Assembly: GCA_022749295.1 (NCBI GenBank)
Contig: CP062007.1
Location: 1,364,001-1,428,000, forward strand
DNA: 64,000 nucleotides
Direction of reading: 5' to 3'
Origin: Flavobacteriaceae bacterium GSB9
Lineage (GTDB): Bacteria; Bacteroidota; Bacteroidia; Flavobacteriales; Flavobacteriaceae
In this document: positions 6,260 to 50,494 of the stretch, piece by piece
Layout of the letters: every line of letters begins with the position of its first letter
Position numbering within the stretch: the first letter of the stretch is position 1
Notes under the pieces: model-generated
The model's input: only the letters and a program-made list of their open reading frames with translations
What the model was told of the DNA's origin: nothing
The model's database searches: none
Translations under genes and position numbers: made by a program

Positions 6260-9200
6260 TTACTCCTCTAACCTGATATCCAAACCTAAACCTTTCAATT
6301 CATGCATTAATACGTTGAAAGATTCTGGCAATCCTGGATCTGGCATTGGTTCACCTTTAACAATACTCTCATATGTTTTAGCTCGACCAATAACGTCATC
6401 GGATTTTACAGTTAAAATCTCACGTAAGGTACTTGATGCACCATAAGCCTCAAGTGCCCAAACTTCCATCTCACCAAAACGCTGACCTCCAAACTGGGCT
6501 TTACCTCCCAATGGTTGTTGTGTAATTAATGAGTAAGGTCCAATAGAACGTGCGTGCATTTTATCATCAACCATGTGTCCTAATTTCAGCATGTAAATCA
6601 CACCTACTGTTGCAGGTTGATCGAAACGCTCACCAGTTCCACCATCATAAAGATAGGTATGGCCATATCTTGGAATTCCAGCCTCATCAGTAAGGGCATT
6701 GATTTGATCGATATTAGCACCATCAAAAATAGGCGTAGCGTACTTACGACCTAATTTTTGCCCGGCCCAACCTAATACCGTTTCGTAAATCTGACCAATG
6801 TTCATACGCGATGGTACACCAAGTGGGTTCAATACAATATCAACTGGTGTTCCGTCTTCTAAGAAAGGCATATCTTCCTGACGAACAATACGGGCAACGA
6901 TACCTTTGTTACCGTGGCGTCCTGCCATTTTATCACCTACTTTAAGTTTACGTTTTTTAGCAATGTAAACTTTCGCTAATTTTATAATTCCAGATGGCAA
7001 TTCATCACCAACAGAAATGGTAAACTTTTCGCGGCGCAATGCCCCTTGTAAGTCGTTTTCCTTAATTTTATAATTGTGGATTAAATCGGCCACTAATTGA
7101 TTCGTATGGTCATCGGTAGTCCATTTTCCAGATACCAAGTGTGCATAGTCATCAACGGCATTTAACATTTTTAAAGTGAACTTTTTACCTTTTGGTAACA
7201 CCTCTTCACCTAAATCGTTAAAAATACCTTGCGCCGTTTTTCCGTTTACGATAGCAAAAAGTTTTTCAACTAAAATGTCTTTTAATTCATCAAACTTTCT
7301 GTCGTACTGTGCTTCAAGAGCTAAAATATCGTCTTTATCCTGCGCTCTTTTACGTTTATCTTTTACCGCTCTGGCGAATAATTTCTTCTCAATTACTACA
7401 CCATTTAATGAAGGCGACGCTTTTAACGATGCATCTTTTACATCACCAGCTTTATCACCAAAAATAGCACGTAATAATTTTTCTTCCGGTGTAGGATCAG
7501 ATTCTCCTTTAGGTGTAATCTTACCAATTAAGATATCACCAGGCTTCACTTCAGCACCAACGCGAATCATACCATGTTCATCTAAGTCTTTTGTGGCTTC
7601 TTCAGAAACATTAGGAATATCGTTAGTTAACTCTTCGTTACCAAGCTTGGTATCTCTAACCTCAAGTGAATATTCATCAATGTGAATTGACGTGAAAATA
7701 TCTTCGCGTACTACTTTTTCAGAAATTACAATCGCATCCTCAAAGTTATATCCTTTCCAAGGCATAAAGGCTACTTTCATATTTCTACCAAGCGCTAATT
7801 CGCCCTGTTGCGTAGCATAACCTTCACAAAGCACCTGGCCTTTTTTAACCTTATCGCCTTTTTTAACGATAGGCTTTAAGTTGATACTGGTACCTTGGTT
7901 GGTTTTTCTGAATTTCACCAATTGATAAGTTTTGATATCGGTATCGAAACTTACTTTAGCTTCATCTTCAGTACGGTCATATTTAATTTTGATTTCTTTT
8001 GAATCAACATACTCAACAACACCACTACCCTCTGCATTAACCAATACACGGGAATCTGACGCTACTTGACGCTCAAGTCCGGTACCTACAATTGGAGATT
8101 GCGGACGTAATAATGGAACCGCTTGACGCATCATGTTTGATCCCATCAATGCACGGTTCGCATCATCATGTTCCAAGAACGGAATTAATGACGCTGAAAT
8201 TGACGAAATCTGGTTTGGTGCCACATCTGTGTAATGAATCTCTTTAGGATCGATTACCGGGAAGTCACCTTCCATACGTGCAATTACTTTATCATGAAGA
8301 ATTTTACCGTCATCATCAACTTTAACAGTTGCTTGTGCAATTAGTTTTTCTTCCTCTTCCTCTGCACTTAAATATGTTGGTTCATTTTTAATATCTACAA
8401 CACCATCTTCTACTTTCCTGTAAGGTGTTTCAATGAATCCCATTGAATTCACTTTCGCATATACTGAAAGTGAAGAAATCAAACCAATGTTTGGCCCCTC
8501 AGGTGTTTCAATAGGACATAAACGTCCGTAGTGCGTGTAGTGAACGTCACGTACCTCGAAACCTGCTCTTTCTCTTGAAAGACCTCCAGGTCCAAGTGCT
8601 GATAAACGACGTTTATGAGTAATCTCGGCCAACGGATTGGTTTGATCCATAAACTGAGATAATTGATTCGTACCAAAGAACGAGTTGATTACAGAAGATA
8701 ATGTCTTCGCATTAATCAAATCGATTGGTGTAAACACCTCGTTATCACGAACGTTCATTCGCTCACGTATGGTACGTGCCATACGAGCTAAACCAACACC
8801 AAACTGAGAGGATAACTGCTCACCTACTGTACGTACACGACGGTTTGAAAGGTGATCAATATCATCAATTTCTGCTTTAGAGTTAATAAGCTCAATTAAG
8901 TATTTAATGATGGTAATGATATCTTCTTTGGTAAGCACTTGCTTATCCATTCCAATATCCAACTGTAATTTTTTGTTCATTCTATAACGACCTACTTCAC
9001 CTAAAGAATAACGTTGGTCACTAAAGAATAATTTATCTATAATACCACGTGCCGTTTCTTCATCTGGCGGCTCGGCATTACGTAATTGTCTATAAATATG
9101 CTCAACAGCCTCCTTTTCTGAGTTTGTTGGGTCTTTTTGAAGCGTGTTGTGAATAATCGCGTAATCACCTTGCTCGTTAGATTCCTTATGTAAAAGAATA

Positions 9201-43321: not shown

Positions 43322-43699
43322 TTAAACAAACCAAGCTTTTTTACTTTCTTTTATCAGCTTTGCCGAAGCATGTAATAGTTTTACAAAATCTTTTTGGTTT
43401 AAATCTTCCAAGCATTTAAGCTGAATAGAGCGTACTTGCTTTCTGTTATTGTCATTTCTTAAAACAGGAAAATCTTGTTCTAAAAGCACTCCTTGAACAA
43501 ATGCCACATCTACATAATCTTTCCCCTTTAAAATGTTTAAATAAACCATGGGTTTGTTTCCAATCCTATAAAACGGAATTTTATAACTGTAATACTCTTC
43601 TACTTCTGGTAAAGTACTCAATATAACACCACGGACATACAACATAATGGACTGAAAAGGCTCCTTTTGTCTAAGAAAATAGGCGTCAACAGGTTTCAC
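43322..43699 (-). CDS. DUF1801 family protein
   Basis: 125 residues. The start is a GTG (codon reads KPVDAYFLRQKEPFQ next), matching the usual N-terminus of the family. Family landmarks include IPFYRIGNKPMVYL and KDYVDVAFVQG. This YdhG/DUF1801 fold has unknown function. Convergent with kdsA, one base apart. Confidence 0.8.
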   Translation of the reverse strand: MKPVDAYFLRQKEPFQSIMLYVRGVILSTLPEVEEYYSYKIPFYRIGNKPMVYLNILKGKDYVDVAFVQGVLLEQDFPVLRNDNNRKQVRSIQLKCLEDLNQKDFVKLLHASAKLIKESKKAWFV

Positions 43700-43785: not shown

Positions 43786-44397
43786 ATGGAATCAAAAGAT
43801 TATTTAAAAGACATCAGCGAGATAAAGGATTTAATGAACAAATCATCACGCTTTATTTCATTAAGTGGCCTATCTGGTATTTTAGCTGGTGTTTATGCTC
43901 TTGTCGGCGCTTCAATTGCCTATTACATTGTAAGTAATTCAGTTCGGGGCTATTTAATTTTAGACGGACATGTTTTTACCATTTGCTTATTAATTTTAGG
44001 GATGGTTGCTCTTTTAAGCATTGCTACCGGAATTTACTTAACCACGCGCAAAGCGAAAAAAAATGGAGAAAAAGTATGGGACAGTTCGTCAAAAAGGTTG
44101 CTGATCAATTTTTTGATTCCTTTAATTACCGGAGGTATTTATATTTTAATCATTCTTAACCAGGAGCGATATGGTCACACTGCTGCCTTAATGCTAATTT
44201 TTTATGGTTTGGCCTTGATCAACGCCTCTAAATACAGCTTGGGAGACATTAAATATCTAGGTTTAACCGAAGTTGTTTTGGGGCTTATTTGCGGTTTTTT
44301 ACCCAGTTATGGTTTTTGGTTTTGGGTGTTGGGCTTTGGCATCATGCATATTATTTATGGTAGTTGGATGCATTTTAAATACGATAGAAAACAATAA
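43786..44397 (+). CDS. Six-helix membrane protein, first gene of the winged-helix operon
   Basis: 203 residues. A charged N-terminus (MESKDYLKDISEIKDLMNKS) precedes about six hydrophobic helices between residues 22 and 195, the last bearing WFWVLGFGIMHIIYGSW. I know the arrangement from Bacteroidota neighbourhoods with a small winged-helix protein but no function. It is the first gene after operator copy 1. A membrane sensor or effector of the regulator at 44704 is one possibility. Confidence 0.7.
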   Translation: MESKDYLKDISEIKDLMNKSSRFISLSGLSGILAGVYALVGASIAYYIVSNSVRGYLILDGHVFTICLLILGMVALLSIATGIYLTTRKAKKNGEKVWDSSSKRLLINFLIPLITGGIYILIILNQERYGHTAALMLIFYGLALINASKYSLGDIKYLGLTEVVLGLICGFLPSYGFWFWVLGFGIMHIIYGSWMHFKYDRKQ

Positions 44398-44406
44398 TTT
44401 AAAACC

Positions 44407-44697
44407 ATGAAAACACTGAACCGCAAGTTAATATTCATTATCTTTTTGCCACTTTTATTACTATGCGTACCCTTGATAGCCATGTTAATTTCGGACGAGG
44501 TTAATTGGACTTGGTTCGACTTCACTGTTGCCGGTCTACTATTATTCGGTTTTGGTGTAATTTTAGAATTAGCTTTAAGACACTTTAAACAAAAAAGAAA
44601 AAGGGTTGTCGCATTGATTGTTTTAACAATTATATTTTTGCTGATTTGGTTAGAACTCGCCGTCGGTATTTTTGGCACACCTCTAGCGGGAAGTTAA
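44407..44697 (+). CDS. Small membrane protein
   Basis: 96 residues with three hydrophobic helices (about 8-28, 38-56, 66-88). A basic loop, RHFKQKRKR, sits between the last two. No family recognised. It lies 9 bp after the preceding gene and 6 bp before the winged-helix gene. Confidence 0.65.
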   Translation: MKTLNRKLIFIIFLPLLLLCVPLIAMLISDEVNWTWFDFTVAGLLLFGFGVILELALRHFKQKRKRVVALIVLTIIFLLIWLELAVGIFGTPLAGS

Positions 44698-44703
44698 ACG
44701 TCT

Positions 44704-44997
44704 ATGAGCATTATAAACAATATAAATAAGTTATTTGACCATCGCATTAGATTGGGCATTATGTCTGTTTTAATGGTAAACGAATACGCAGATTTTAACA
44801 CCCTAAAGGAACTTTTAGGCGCTACCGATGGTAATTTGGCCAGCCATACCAAAGCGCTAGAAAAAGCAGAATATATTAAAGTTGAAAAACAGTTTATTGG
44901 CCGAAAACCGAATACAAGATACTCAACCACAAAACTTGGTGAAAAAAAATTTAAAAAGCATATTGAAGCTCTCGAAAAATTAATCAAGAAGTCTTAG
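44704..44997 (+). CDS. Winged-helix transcriptional regulator
   Basis: 97 residues, a single winged-helix domain of the ArsR/MarR-like type used in Bacteroidota. Recognition helix region: DGNLASHTKALEKAEYIKV (41-59), wing: GRKPNTRYSTTKLGEKKF. No ligand-binding extension. It is the likely binder of the palindromes at 43760 and 45788, being the only DNA-binding protein in either operon, and would then regulate both. Confidence 0.85.
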   Translation: MSIINNINKLFDHRIRLGIMSVLMVNEYADFNTLKELLGATDGNLASHTKALEKAEYIKVEKQFIGRKPNTRYSTTKLGEKKFKKHIEALEKLIKKS

Positions 44998-45002
44998 ATT
45001 AA

Positions 45003-45767
45003 ATGGAATATTTTGTAGATAAAGATTCTATAGTTAGAAAAATTTGGGGTAAAAGCGACACGGTTTTGTTAGTCTTTGCGGGCGCTTCGGCCGAATTTGC
45101 TTTAAATAAAGCGGTAGATTGGCTTTACTTTACAGGAAAATTGCCCAAAGATCCACTCGGGCGACTTTTTTCAACTGTAAATTATGCAAGAAGCATCGTG
45201 TTTTCTGAAAGTAAAACGGCACTAAAAACCATTGATAATATTACGGCCATACATGCCGCCATTGAAAATAAACGCGGTAAAGCCATTCCTGACTGGGCCT
45301 ATAAAGATGTGCTTTTCATGCTCATAGGCTATTCAATAAAATCGTTTGAAATTCTTGAAAGACCATTAACTCTTGAAGAAAAGCAAGACGTCTTACATGT
45401 GTTTAAAACAGTTGGCGAACGCATGGGGCTACAATCGATTCCGATAACTTACTCTAATTTTGAGATATCTCGAAAAAAACATTTAGAAAACAACCTATAC
45501 AACGGCGCTTTCACCAAAGACCTTTACAAACAATACAAAAAGCATTTAGGTTTTTTTAGGTATAACCTGCTAATTGAAAGCCAAATTCTGCTGCTACCCT
45601 ATCAAGCACGTACATTATTAAAATTCCGAAAACATTCTTTATTGAAACCATTAATTGCAGTATATAAAGTTTTTAGAAGTTTAAAATTAGATGGGGCCAT
45701 AAAGGAAGTGTTACTTCCTGCGGAATATAAAGACGATATTAAACGTTTAAACATCGTTTCAAAATAA
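45003..45767 (+). CDS. MpaB-like (DUF2236) oxygenase-family protein
   Basis: 254 residues matching the DUF2236/MpaB family, which includes fungal MpaB and latex-clearing protein. Visible: a membrane-facing N-terminal helix (VLLVFAGASAEFALNKAV), DPLGRLFSTVNYARSIVF and ITAIHAAIENKRGKAI. In heme-dependent members the segment about 20 residues later carries WVH with the proximal His; here that place reads FMLIGYSIKSF and has no His. Activity is therefore uncertain. It closes the first operon, 5 bp after the regulator. Confidence 0.75.
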   Translation: MEYFVDKDSIVRKIWGKSDTVLLVFAGASAEFALNKAVDWLYFTGKLPKDPLGRLFSTVNYARSIVFSESKTALKTIDNITAIHAAIENKRGKAIPDWAYKDVLFMLIGYSIKSFEILERPLTLEEKQDVLHVFKTVGERMGLQSIPITYSNFEISRKKHLENNLYNGAFTKDLYKQYKKHLGFFRYNLLIESQILLLPYQARTLLKFRKHSLLKPLIAVYKVFRSLKLDGAIKEVLLPAEYKDDIKRLNIVSK

Positions 45768-47539: not shown

Positions 47540-48055
47540 ATGAGTTATTTCGGCAGCGCAAAAATAAAGTCACTCAGAAAGCAACTCATAATCGTGCTTT
47601 TTAAATATTCAAAACAGATTTATACGCGCATGTTCAAAAACCATGAATCTTGGAATGTTACCAAAGTAGATTTACTGAAACTACCTGAGGACACCTTAGG
47701 AAGGCATTTAGGTGAATTTCTTAAAAAGAATGATTTTGAACTCATTCCTAAAGTAGAACGGCATGATTGCTACCACGTACTCTGTGGATACTCTACTAAG
47801 GTTGAAGACGAAATTGCCTTACAATGCCTTTGCTTCGGTAACGGAAAAAGAAGCTTATACCTTTATGTTGCTGTTATTTTGGGGGTTATCATTTTACCTG
47901 ATTACCTTGGTTATTACTTAAATTCCTATCGTATAGGAAAAAGAGCCAACACGTTTCACCATTACGATTACGAGAAGCTATTGCAAGTTTCAATTTACGA
48001 TTTTCGGTCTGTTATTTTTTCGTCTAAACAAATCGATCCCATAAAACCATTATAA
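47540..48055 (+). CDS. Coq4-like protein
   Basis: 171 residues. The segment LKLPEDTLGRHLGEFLKKND leads to H75-D76-x-x-H79-x11-E91, which is exactly the HDxxHx11E zinc-type motif of COQ4, the protein of ubiquinone synthesis. A hydrophobic segment (YLYVAVILGVIILPDYLGYYL) follows. Flavobacteriia make menaquinone, not ubiquinone, so the partner must differ. It lies between membrane-protein genes and is probably membrane-associated. Confidence 0.75.
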   Translation: MSYFGSAKIKSLRKQLIIVLFKYSKQIYTRMFKNHESWNVTKVDLLKLPEDTLGRHLGEFLKKNDFELIPKVERHDCYHVLCGYSTKVEDEIALQCLCFGNGKRSLYLYVAVILGVIILPDYLGYYLNSYRIGKRANTFHHYDYEKLLQVSIYDFRSVIFSSKQIDPIKPL

Positions 48056-48695: not shown

Positions 48696-49066
48696 AATTA
48701 AAAGTCCACGCACATTATGTTTTTATAACATTATTACTTTTCACTATTGAAATCCTTATCGCCATGTATTTAAAAACAGGTTTTATAAGGCACACCTTTG
48801 GCGACTTTTTGGCAGTCATCCTTATTTATACCTTTTTTAAAAGTTTTCTAAAGATCAATTCTATTAAACTGGCATTAGCCACTTTACTATTTGCATATAG
48901 TATTGAGTTTCTTCAAATGATCAACGTATTGAAAATATTAGGCCTTGAGGATAATATAGCCGCAAAACTCATTTTAGGAAGTACGTTTCAATTTACAGAT
49001 TTAATCGCCTACTCTTTAGGTATCCTATGTGTTTTAATAATCGAATTTAAACTTCAAAAAACATGA
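48692..49066 (+). CDS. DUF2809 membrane protein
   Basis: 124 residues with four hydrophobic helices. DUF2809 landmarks: FIRHTFGDFLAVILIYTFFKSF and the polar pair in SIEFLQ, with QFTDLIAYSLGIL near the end. Function unknown. Overlaps the previous stop by 4 bp and the next start by 4 bp, so it is part of a tight operon. Confidence 0.8.
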   Translation: MKLKVHAHYVFITLLLFTIEILIAMYLKTGFIRHTFGDFLAVILIYTFFKSFLKINSIKLALATLLFAYSIEFLQMINVLKILGLEDNIAAKLILGSTFQFTDLIAYSLGILCVLIIEFKLQKT

Positions 49067-49725
49067 ACACTTTAAAACTATTTGTTTTGAGTAAATTCAA
49101 AACCATAACCATATTAACAGCAACCATGGGATTTAGCTTAGTGTTGCTAATGATAAGAATGAAAATAACGCATTCGTTTTTCTATTTATTTTTAGTGTGG
49201 AACTTGTTTTTAGCCGCCATACCCTTTGCCATTTCAAGCTATTTGGTGTGCCTCCCCAAACCGTCAAAACTAATATCACTGACTTGGTTTGGTGTATGGC
49301 TGCTTTTTTTACCTAATGCTCCCTACATGATTACAGATCTATTGCACATTAGCATTAGCGAAACCAAATACATTTGGCTTGATATTTTGGTTGTAAAGTC
49401 GTTTGCACTTTGTGGAGTTCTGTTATTTTACCTATCAATTCTTGATATGGGAAAAGTTTTTGCAATCTATTTTAAAAAGGCCGTTTTAGATTTTTGCCTA
49501 GTACTTATCGTCTTTCTTTCAAGTTTTGGTGTTTATTTGGGAAGATTTTTAAGATATAACTCTTGGGAAATTCTAACTAATCCGAAGCATTTGTTACTTG
49601 ACATTGCTAATATAACCATAAAACCAATAGCACATAATGAGGCTTGGTTGTTCACTTTATTTTTCGGGACATTTTTAGGCATTGGTTTTTGGGTCTTTAA
49701 AACACTTGCCTTAAGAGAAAACTAA
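49063..49725 (+). CDS. DUF1361 membrane protein
   Basis: 220 residues with about six hydrophobic helices. DUF1361 landmarks: WNLFLAAIPFAIS, LTWFGVWLLFLPNAPYMITDLLH and FGVYLGRFLRYNSWE. Function unknown. Last gene of the operon; convergent with the slipin gene after a 13-bp gap. Confidence 0.82.
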   Translation: MNTLKLFVLSKFKTITILTATMGFSLVLLMIRMKITHSFFYLFLVWNLFLAAIPFAISSYLVCLPKPSKLISLTWFGVWLLFLPNAPYMITDLLHISISETKYIWLDILVVKSFALCGVLLFYLSILDMGKVFAIYFKKAVLDFCLVLIVFLSSFGVYLGRFLRYNSWEILTNPKHLLLDIANITIKPIAHNEAWLFTLFFGTFLGIGFWVFKTLALREN

Positions 49726-49738
49726 ACAAAATTAGTGG

Positions 49739-50494
49739 TTAACCAACATCCTTTTTAGGTTTCTGAGGTAATACTTCTTCTGGGAAAGGGAATAAAATTG
49801 TGGAATTCTTTTCGGCTGCAATGTTAGAAAGAGTTTGATACAACCTCAATTTAATTGCCGAAGGAGACTGATCGATGAGCTTGCCAGCTTCCAACAACTT
49901 GCCAGCTGCTTGTTCTTCAGCCAAAGCCAAAATAATACGGGCACGTCTAGAACGCTCTGCCTCGGCTTGGTTTGCCATCATGCGTTTCATGTTTTCTGGT
50001 AACTGAATATCTTTAATCTTAACATCTATAATATCTATACCCCACTCTTTAGTTTCAACCTCTACAATTTTTTTAATGTTATTACCCATTTCCTCTCGTT
50101 TTGACAAAATGGTGTCCAATTCAACCTTACCACAAACATCGCGCAAAGCCGCCTGAGATAACTGGGTTATGGCAAACGAATATTCTTCAACTTCCAACAC
50201 CGCCATTTCTGGATCAACAACTTTAAAAAAAACCACACCATCAATACTACACGGTACGTTATCCTCGGTCATCACCTCTTGTGAAACTACATTTATGGTA
50301 ATAACCCTTATATCTACTATCTGTATGGTTTCTACTAGCGGAATAATCCATCTAAAACCAGGTTGTAGTGTACTAACATGTTTACCAAACCTAAACTTTA
50401 AAGCTCTTTTGTATTCAAAAATCACACGTATGCCCGATAACAGAAATACTACAACTACAACCGTAAAAATCAATGCAGGATTCATGATAAACAT
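49739..50494 (-). CDS. Slipin (stomatin/prohibitin-like SPFH protein)
   Basis: 251 residues. N-terminal membrane helix (ALIFTVVVVVFLLSGIRVIF) followed by an SPFH/Band 7 domain (RVIFEYKRALKFRFGKHV, QPGFRWIIPLVETI) and a coiled-coil tail rich in Ala/Glu/Arg (NQAEAERSRRARIILALAEEQAAGKLLEAG). Slipins organise membrane microdomains. The usual partner, an NfeD protein, is not in the window. Confidence 0.93.
   Translation of the reverse strand: MFIMNPALIFTVVVVVFLLSGIRVIFEYKRALKFRFGKHVSTLQPGFRWIIPLVETIQIVDIRVITINVVSQEVMTEDNVPCSIDGVVFFKVVDPEMAVLEVEEYSFAITQLSQAALRDVCGKVELDTILSKREEMGNNIKKIVEVETKEWGIDIIDVKIKDIQLPENMKRMMANQAEAERSRRARIILALAEEQAAGKLLEAGKLIDQSPSAIKLRLYQTLSNIAAEKNSTILFPFPEEVLPQKPKKDVG

Follow-up and report, generated by a model that had tools for sequence, protein, structure and literature searches.

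What does a relative of COQ4, a protein of ubiquinone synthesis, do in a bacterium expected to make menaquinone? The question is raised by a 64,000-nucleotide stretch of contig CP062007.1 of Flavobacteriaceae bacterium GSB9 (hereafter the window), in which a sequence-only reading had noticed the COQ4 metal motif in the translation of one open reading frame and had offered two alternatives: that the fold serves another prenyl-lipid, or that the organism has an unusual quinone step. We designate the protein Coq4L and consider in turn its family and fold, the quinone genotype of its hosts, and the operon in which it is encoded.

Coq4L is a genuine Coq4-family protein, far beyond chance. A search with the Coq4 profile (PF05019), which had been proposed as a check, gave E 1.2e-8 and 35 bits against a curated cut-off of 22.9, the best stretch being residues 73-157, aligned with positions 124-213 of the 221 in the profile; no NCBIfam model matched at E up to 1. 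The metal-site residues H75, D76, H79 and E91 form the motif HDCYH-x11-E, so that the HDxxHx11E spacing claimed from the letters is borne out exactly. All four are invariant in the 28 rows of an alignment (A1) of the window protein and 27 homologues of 35-67% identity, from which L025 and L030, as the more divergent of 30 loci, were excluded. They are likewise invariant in 32 of 32 rows of a second, hand-picked set, which spans three phyla and takes in L025, L030 and Coq4 proteins of cyanobacteria and Sphingobium. A chance motif is ruled out by the Pfam match, the invariant ligands and the match to the Coq4 fold.

This fold, all-helical, is predicted by an AlphaFold2 model of Coq4L (mean pLDDT 92.2, pTM 0.86). 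Foldseek related the model to two Coq4-family entries, 6E12 and 3MSQ (E 1.7e-5 and 5.3e-5), beyond which no entry fell below E 1, and VIA-align superposed it on 6E12 with Z 13.6 (149 residues, 4.3 A) and on 3MSQ with Z 11.9 (142 residues, 3.6 A), the next-best entry reaching Z 2.9. The structural comparison returned the Coq4 fold, and not the different fold that had been named as something that would remove the puzzle. Phmmer and profile searches of the PDB also ranked 3MSQ and 6E12 (Nostoc, Coq4 family) at the top, though weakly; identity of Coq4L to these cyanobacterial proteins of the same fold, Npun02000094 and Alr8543, respectively, is 19-20%. Entry 6E12 holds oleate and Mg at the motif, and the first entry for Alr8543, now obsolete, is described as modeled with geranylgeranyl monophosphate (PMC9774615). 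With 171 residues Coq4L is shorter than the full-length Coq4 domain of about 220, and its segment before the HD is shortened, yet the 149 residues mentioned superpose on 6E12.

The shortening marks a clade. In a tree of 32 hand-picked rows, with one alphaproteobacterial and no eukaryotic COQ4 sequence, 22 of the 24 Bacteroidota proteins form one group (support 96/90) apart from the Coq4 proteins of cyanobacteria and Sphingobium; the two exceptions, L025 and L164, sit outside it on long branches, and the outer part of the tree is unsure. All 22 clade rows have 8 residues between the F66 and H75 columns, and 21 of them have GNG after the glutamate (ANG in L162), where the outside rows have other residues. 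The F66-to-H75 spacing is 23-32 in seven of the eight cyanobacterial and Sphingobium rows and 12 in the eighth. Judged from these sequences, Coq4L is a separate, mainly flavobacterial clade of the Coq4 fold. The LPEDTLG... segment of Coq4L corresponds in the alignment to LPxGTLG/PPDSLG in the cyanobacterial Coq4 proteins, and its description as adjoining the metal motif holds for the Coq4L clade, with its gap of 8, and not for COQ4 at large, the gap being mostly 23-32 in the cyanobacterial and Sphingobium rows. The plasmid-borne cyanobacterial relatives lie outside the clade and have the longer segment before the HD in 6 of 7 cases; the seven such loci that we viewed have no annotated CreD, DUF4153, DUF218, DUF2809 or DUF1361 gene nearby. 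A member of the clade with 47% identity to the window protein was also seen on the Aureibacter plasmid pAT2 (Cytophagales; L171, 7001-7459). None of the families of the operon described below is annotated beside it, and its neighbor is a DUF1801 gene; a DUF1801 gene also lies near the window locus, at 43322-43699.

By the genes searched, the genotype of the host is that of menaquinone and not of ubiquinone. MenA and MenD score over their cut-offs in the window's own genome, in agreement with the menaquinone organism that had been claimed, and profile searches of this genome brought neither UbiG nor the ubiquinone hydroxylases (Ubi-OHases) over cut-off, so the quinone puzzle stands. Across 12 hand-picked Coq4L genomes, the window's own included, neither UbiG nor the Ubi-OHases came over cut-off in any (0 of 12 for each), whereas MenA and MenD each did in 10; the remaining two genomes, which belong to other families of the class, have PF02621, a family of the futalosine route. 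Coq4L is thus compatible with either route to menaquinone. The quinone-route models were UbiG, Ubi-OHases, MenA, MenD and PF02621. Matches below threshold were obtained with the UbiG model in 12 of 12 genomes and with Ubi-OHases in 11 of 12; the control genomes gave matches in 14 of 14, over cut-off in 2 (UbiG) and 3 (Ubi-OHases). A hidden ubiquinone pathway was rejected on these counts, 0 of 12 genomes over cut-off with either model and subthreshold matches in all 14 controls as well. As the 12 genomes gave no sign of a ubiquinone pathway, the label “ubiquinone biosynthetic process” is probably mistaken across a large clade of bacteria.

That label is attached automatically in public records, which name such proteins “Coq4 family protein” (e.g., in Aureibacter, Bacteroidota, including the record of L171), and the COG “Ubiquinone biosynthesis protein Coq4” is listed for a Chryseobacterium genome (PMC10710014). 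Coq4L is a patchy but ordinary accessory gene: of 199 family genomes, 39 have a match to our own profile and 29 to the Pfam model, and our own profile detects it in 29 of 395 genomes across the phylum. One of the 39 (G122) apparently has only a 240-residue paralogue type, by score and frame length. The surprise that the sequence-only reading expressed at a Coq4 gene overlooked that the family is this common in the lineage and already annotated; the original puzzle is therefore modest, and what is new is the operon context.

This operon escaped the first reading, and it is the better clue. Coq4L is encoded within a run of genes on one strand (table 1), in which the spacings from the DUF4153 gene through those of the 106-aa protein, Coq4L, the DUF218 protein and DUF2809 to DUF1361 are -4, +8, +1, -4 and -4 nt; ORFs were called mechanically. 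The SanA model NF008092 matches the DUF218 protein of the window at E 1.7e-56 and 191 bits, far below its equivalog cut-off of 363. Over all DUF2809 ORFs, E72 and Q75 are kept in 84 of 84, D38 in 84 of 84 and D103 in 82 of 84, with two gaps. Among the Coq4L neighbors that received a name there is no men or ubi gene, many neighbors being without a name. Anti-phage defense was considered and rejected, as the PADLOC output was limited to a pair of weak Csa3 matches, both to the winged-helix protein. Just past the operon, on the opposite strand (49739-50494), lies a gene for a Band-7/SPFH protein, which BLAST found in 1 of 81 neighborhoods, its own; it is perhaps a local insertion.

Table 1. Genes of the Coq4L operon in the window; fractions refer to the 116 distinct Coq4L loci compared
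Feature	Position	Strand	Details
mem203, hydrophobic, 203 aa; conserved first gene of the locus	43786..44397	+	no Pfam match at E up to 10; 105/116 distinct loci
Small hydrophobic ORF, 96 aa, between mem203 and regulator	44407..44697	+	ORFs of similar size there in some other loci (size only)
Winged-helix regulator, PF13601 HTH_34	44704..44997	+	104 bits; 99/116 distinct loci
MpaB/rubber-oxygenase-like, PF09995; optional member	45003..45767	+	39 bits, cut-off 23; 26/116 distinct loci
DUF4153 protein, PF13687	45823..47214	+	110 bits; 71/116 distinct loci; CreD takes its place in other genomes
Small hydrophobic protein, 106 aa	47211..47531	+	no family over cut-off; 4-nt overlap with DUF4153 gene; 59/116 distinct loci
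Coq4L, Coq4-like protein	47540..48055	+	171 aa, ATG start; GNGK at 100-103
SanA-like DUF218 protein, PF02698	48057..48695	+	67 bits; begins 1 nt past the end of Coq4L; 72/116 distinct loci
DUF2809, PF10990, “Skillet” lipocone of PMC12419801	48692..49066	+	81 bits; ExxQ (E72, Q75), D38, D103; 82/116 distinct loci
DUF1361 protein, PF07099; last gene of the run	49063..49725	+	138 bits; 93/116 distinct loci

The comparison of neighborhoods began with 121 stretches, namely the window, the 80 best of 252 relatives confirmed in a contig scan, and 40 further stretches. L104 and L149 were dropped for want of an ORF labeled Coq4L, leaving 119, and three pairs proved to be the same places (L072/L150, L080/L133 and L098/L137), leaving 116 distinct loci. 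It should be noted that 32 of the best 80 loci are titled Winogradskyella, so that the totals lean to close relatives. The 36 more widely drawn loci that do not repeat the best 80 contain mem203 in 26, HTH_34 in 25, DUF1361 in 17, DUF4153 in 12, CreD in 12, DUF2809 in 8, the SanA-like protein in 7 and MpaB in 2; paralogues in unrelated settings (L148, L156, L163 and L164) are among these 36. The core reaches other families: L161 and L162 have the order mem203, HTH_34, Coq4L, CreD, in L162 with a 146-aa ORF before Coq4L. Six genomes of one genus (g128; L152, L153 and L165-L168) encode Coq4L with no mem203 or HTH_34 labeled in the stretch. In L152 a YaeF/YiiX-type amidase (Peptidase_C92; 7501-8175) precedes Coq4L, away from the regulator locus, and L153 also has a gene of about 224 aa there. 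On the same strand as Coq4L, 45 of the 116 distinct loci encode a further small hydrophobic protein, about 95-105 aa long, whose end reads ...NIPIA.LYY...; in 32 of them it is at most 300 nt from Coq4L (examples are L134, L146, L152, L153, L157-L160 and L165-L168), lying beside or overlapping Coq4L in the g128 genomes. Two examples of it have no Pfam match over cut-off, and it has no match in the window between 34001 and 60000.

CreD (PF06123) is present in 24 of the 116 distinct loci, and in the genomes with Coq4L, CreD and DUF4153 look like alternatives at the same locus. Among the 199 family genomes, 39 have Coq4L, 62 CreD and 39 DUF4153 over cut-off; for DUF4153, which is matched in 44 genomes, only these 39 are counted. 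Of the 39 Coq4L genomes, 32 have CreD or DUF4153 no farther than 3 kb from Coq4L (DUF4153 in 22, CreD in 10) and 7 have neither so close; the two occur together within that distance in 0 of 39 genomes and in the same locus in 0 of 119 loci. When a genome has both Coq4L and CreD, the two are within 0.5 kb in 10 of 11 cases; for Coq4L and DUF4153 the distance is within 3 kb in 22 of 25. Within the set of Coq4L genomes, DUF4153 passes its cut-off in 1 of the 11 that have CreD and in 24 of the 28 that lack it (p 1.5e-5, kinship ignored).

Over genomes, DUF4153 is associated with Coq4L (25 of 39 with it vs. 14 of 160 without, p 1.8e-12, kinship ignored), whereas the presence of CreD is not (11 of 39 vs. 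51 of 160, p 0.70, kinship ignored), and CreD as an obligate partner of Coq4L was rejected on the latter result. CreD loci without Coq4L exist: among hand-picked genomes lacking Coq4L, mem203 was found in 13 of 14 with CreD, 397 to 1249 nt from the CreD match and with space for a regulator, compared with one weak mem203 match in 8 genomes without CreD and Coq4L. Coq4L thus looks like an optional gene of a locus composed of mem203 plus CreD or DUF4153. CreD has no match in the window's genome, where DUF4153 might be its stand-in, and the other sampled genome of the window's genus (G159) is without matches to Coq4L, mem203, CreD and DUF4153.

Several of these neighbors have been studied or classified elsewhere. 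Loss of SanA in Escherichia coli is linked to lipid II availability (PMC13251401) and to raised peptidoglycan synthesis, and its paralogue ElyC is tied to sequestration of Und-P; the SanA domain is reported to be periplasmic, and sanA and elyC to be kept mostly in Enterobacterales (PMC12176290). Given this restricted distribution and the score of the window protein below the SanA cut-off, the transfer of SanA function is loose. Loss of CreD damages the envelope in Stenotrophomonas (PMC4689548). The likeness to the CreD envelope-integrity loci described there for Stenotrophomonas and others lies in the other family genomes in which CreD adjoins Coq4L; unlike those loci, the window has DUF4153 and a winged-helix gene, its genome gives no CreD match, and no CreBC gene is named at the locus. 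DUF2809 belongs to the lipocone superfamily, for which activity on phospholipid or polyisoprenoid lipid head groups is predicted, and is reported from operons that combine a 6TM protein and a wHTH regulator with isoprenoid or exopolysaccharide/ECA-type genes (PMC12419801). The window resembles the Skillet-DUF2809 operon of that study in the ExxQ motif, the HTH_34 regulator, the hydrophobic proteins and the DUF218 neighbor; a 6TM partner may be among its several hydrophobic proteins. Coq4, CreD, DUF1361 and DUF4153 were not found in the body text of that paper. A literature search by title and abstract for Coq4, CreD, DUF4153, DUF1361 and DUF2809 found no paper on Coq4 in such an operon.

COQ4 itself is, in vitro, a Zn-dependent C1 decarboxylase, and double mutants of its motif give no product (PMC7615680); oxidative decarboxylation by COQ4 is discussed in a review citing work in human cells (PMC11495197). 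Coq4L has in common with this eukaryotic protein of ubiquinone synthesis the PF05019 match, the HDxxHx11E motif and the Coq4 fold. It differs in its length of 171 aa, in its operon of envelope genes and in a genome where UbiG and the ubiquinone hydroxylases are not over cut-off.

Of the readings considered, we favor, tentatively and with some way to go before it could be called probable, that Coq4L is a metal and prenyl-lipid protein of the Coq4 fold reused in envelope homeostasis, outside quinone synthesis. It would be one product of a regulated envelope-homeostasis operon comprising the winged-helix regulator, DUF4153 or CreD, Coq4L, the SanA-like DUF218 protein, DUF2809 and DUF1361. Because fold and ligands are kept, it most likely binds a metal and a prenyl-like lipid; it would then process a membrane prenyl lipid, with the bound metal acting as a Lewis acid as in COQ4. 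The lipid we favor would come from the undecaprenyl carrier pool, as Und-P, lipid II or a derivative, in view of the link between SanA loss and lipid II availability and of the head-group activity predicted for lipocones such as DUF2809. A pathway shared with the SanA-like protein and DUF2809 is suggested by linkage, which is not proof, and the argument for a lipid carrier is weaker beyond the window's close relatives, given the 7 of 36 and 8 of 36 wider loci that have these two proteins. If an envelope role is true, COQ4 would be one branch of a wider family of prenyl-lipid metalloproteins, which bears on the mechanism of COQ4, and the flavobacterial operon would tie SanA-like proteins, CreD/DUF4153 and a lipocone, all poorly understood envelope proteins, into a testable unit.

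Coq4L could instead be a nonenzymatic, lipid-binding membrane scaffold for DUF4153, CreD and the small membrane proteins, its metal being structural, like the organizer proposed for yeast Coq4. The NIPIA.LYY protein, so close to Coq4L in 32 of 116 loci, suggests a membrane complex, and a structural role of Coq4 is discussed in PMC11495197. We regard this as rather unlikely, as the conservation of all four ligands throughout the 32 hand-picked rows, which span three phyla, is more than a scaffold seems to need, and COQ4 is an enzyme in vitro (PMC7615680).

It is unlikely, too, that Coq4L acts in envelope repair on a phospholipid or a fatty-acid derivative in place of a polyprenyl carrier. The oleate in 6E12 (PMC9774615) points in this direction but may be adventitious; a Coq4 gene on a Sphingobium plasmid lies amid genes for acyl-CoA dehydrogenase, acyl-CoA synthetase and P450, and the predicted targets of lipocones include phospholipid head groups (PMC12419801). 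The characterized member of the family, however, acts on prenyl lipids.

A hidden quinone step, in which Coq4L would decarboxylate or oxidize a menaquinone precursor or a minor quinone, is improbable: membership in the Coq4 family, the presence of menaquinone genes and the action of COQ4 on a prenylated aromatic acid (PMC7615680) speak for it, but Coq4L is found in only 39 of 199 family genomes, occurs with both menaquinone routes, and has no men or ubi gene among its named neighbors (many having no name). The same distribution, together with named neighbors that are envelope genes or uncharacterized membrane genes rather than men or ubi genes, means that of the two alternatives offered at the outset a fold serving another prenyl-lipid fits better than an unusual quinone step.

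The favored reading, an envelope role on a prenyl lipid, can be extended to a specific and quite speculative route. Lcp-type oxygenases cleave cis-polyisoprene, and the undecaprenyl chain is similar. The locus would, in this highly doubtful scheme, be an undescribed route for turnover or repair of the undecaprenyl carrier in flavobacteria, in which the head group is the target of DUF2809 or the SanA-like protein and the isoprenoid chain that of the MpaB/Lcp-type oxygenase, in loci that have one, and the prenyl acid or phosphate so formed is the substrate of Coq4L, acting as a metal-dependent decarboxylase or lyase. If true, Coq4L would be, as far as the literature was searched, the first known Coq4-fold enzyme outside quinone chemistry.

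Other Coq4 genes were encountered in settings of their own. The Sphingobium plasmid gene (L174, 4599-5396) is surrounded by genes for acyl-CoA dehydrogenases, an acyl-CoA synthetase, a nitronate monooxygenase and a P450, which is another non-quinone setting. A second Coq4 type, of 242-244 aa with an intact motif and a C-terminal extension, is encoded in L148 (6767-7501) and L156 (6715-7443) among small mixed genes. By ORF sizes these two loci had suggested a Coq4 paralogue in an aryl-polyene/flexirubin cluster, an idea dropped on inspection by eye, the ORFs being mixed small genes. The Coq4 gene of L148 is flanked on either side by identical copies of a 153-aa ORF.
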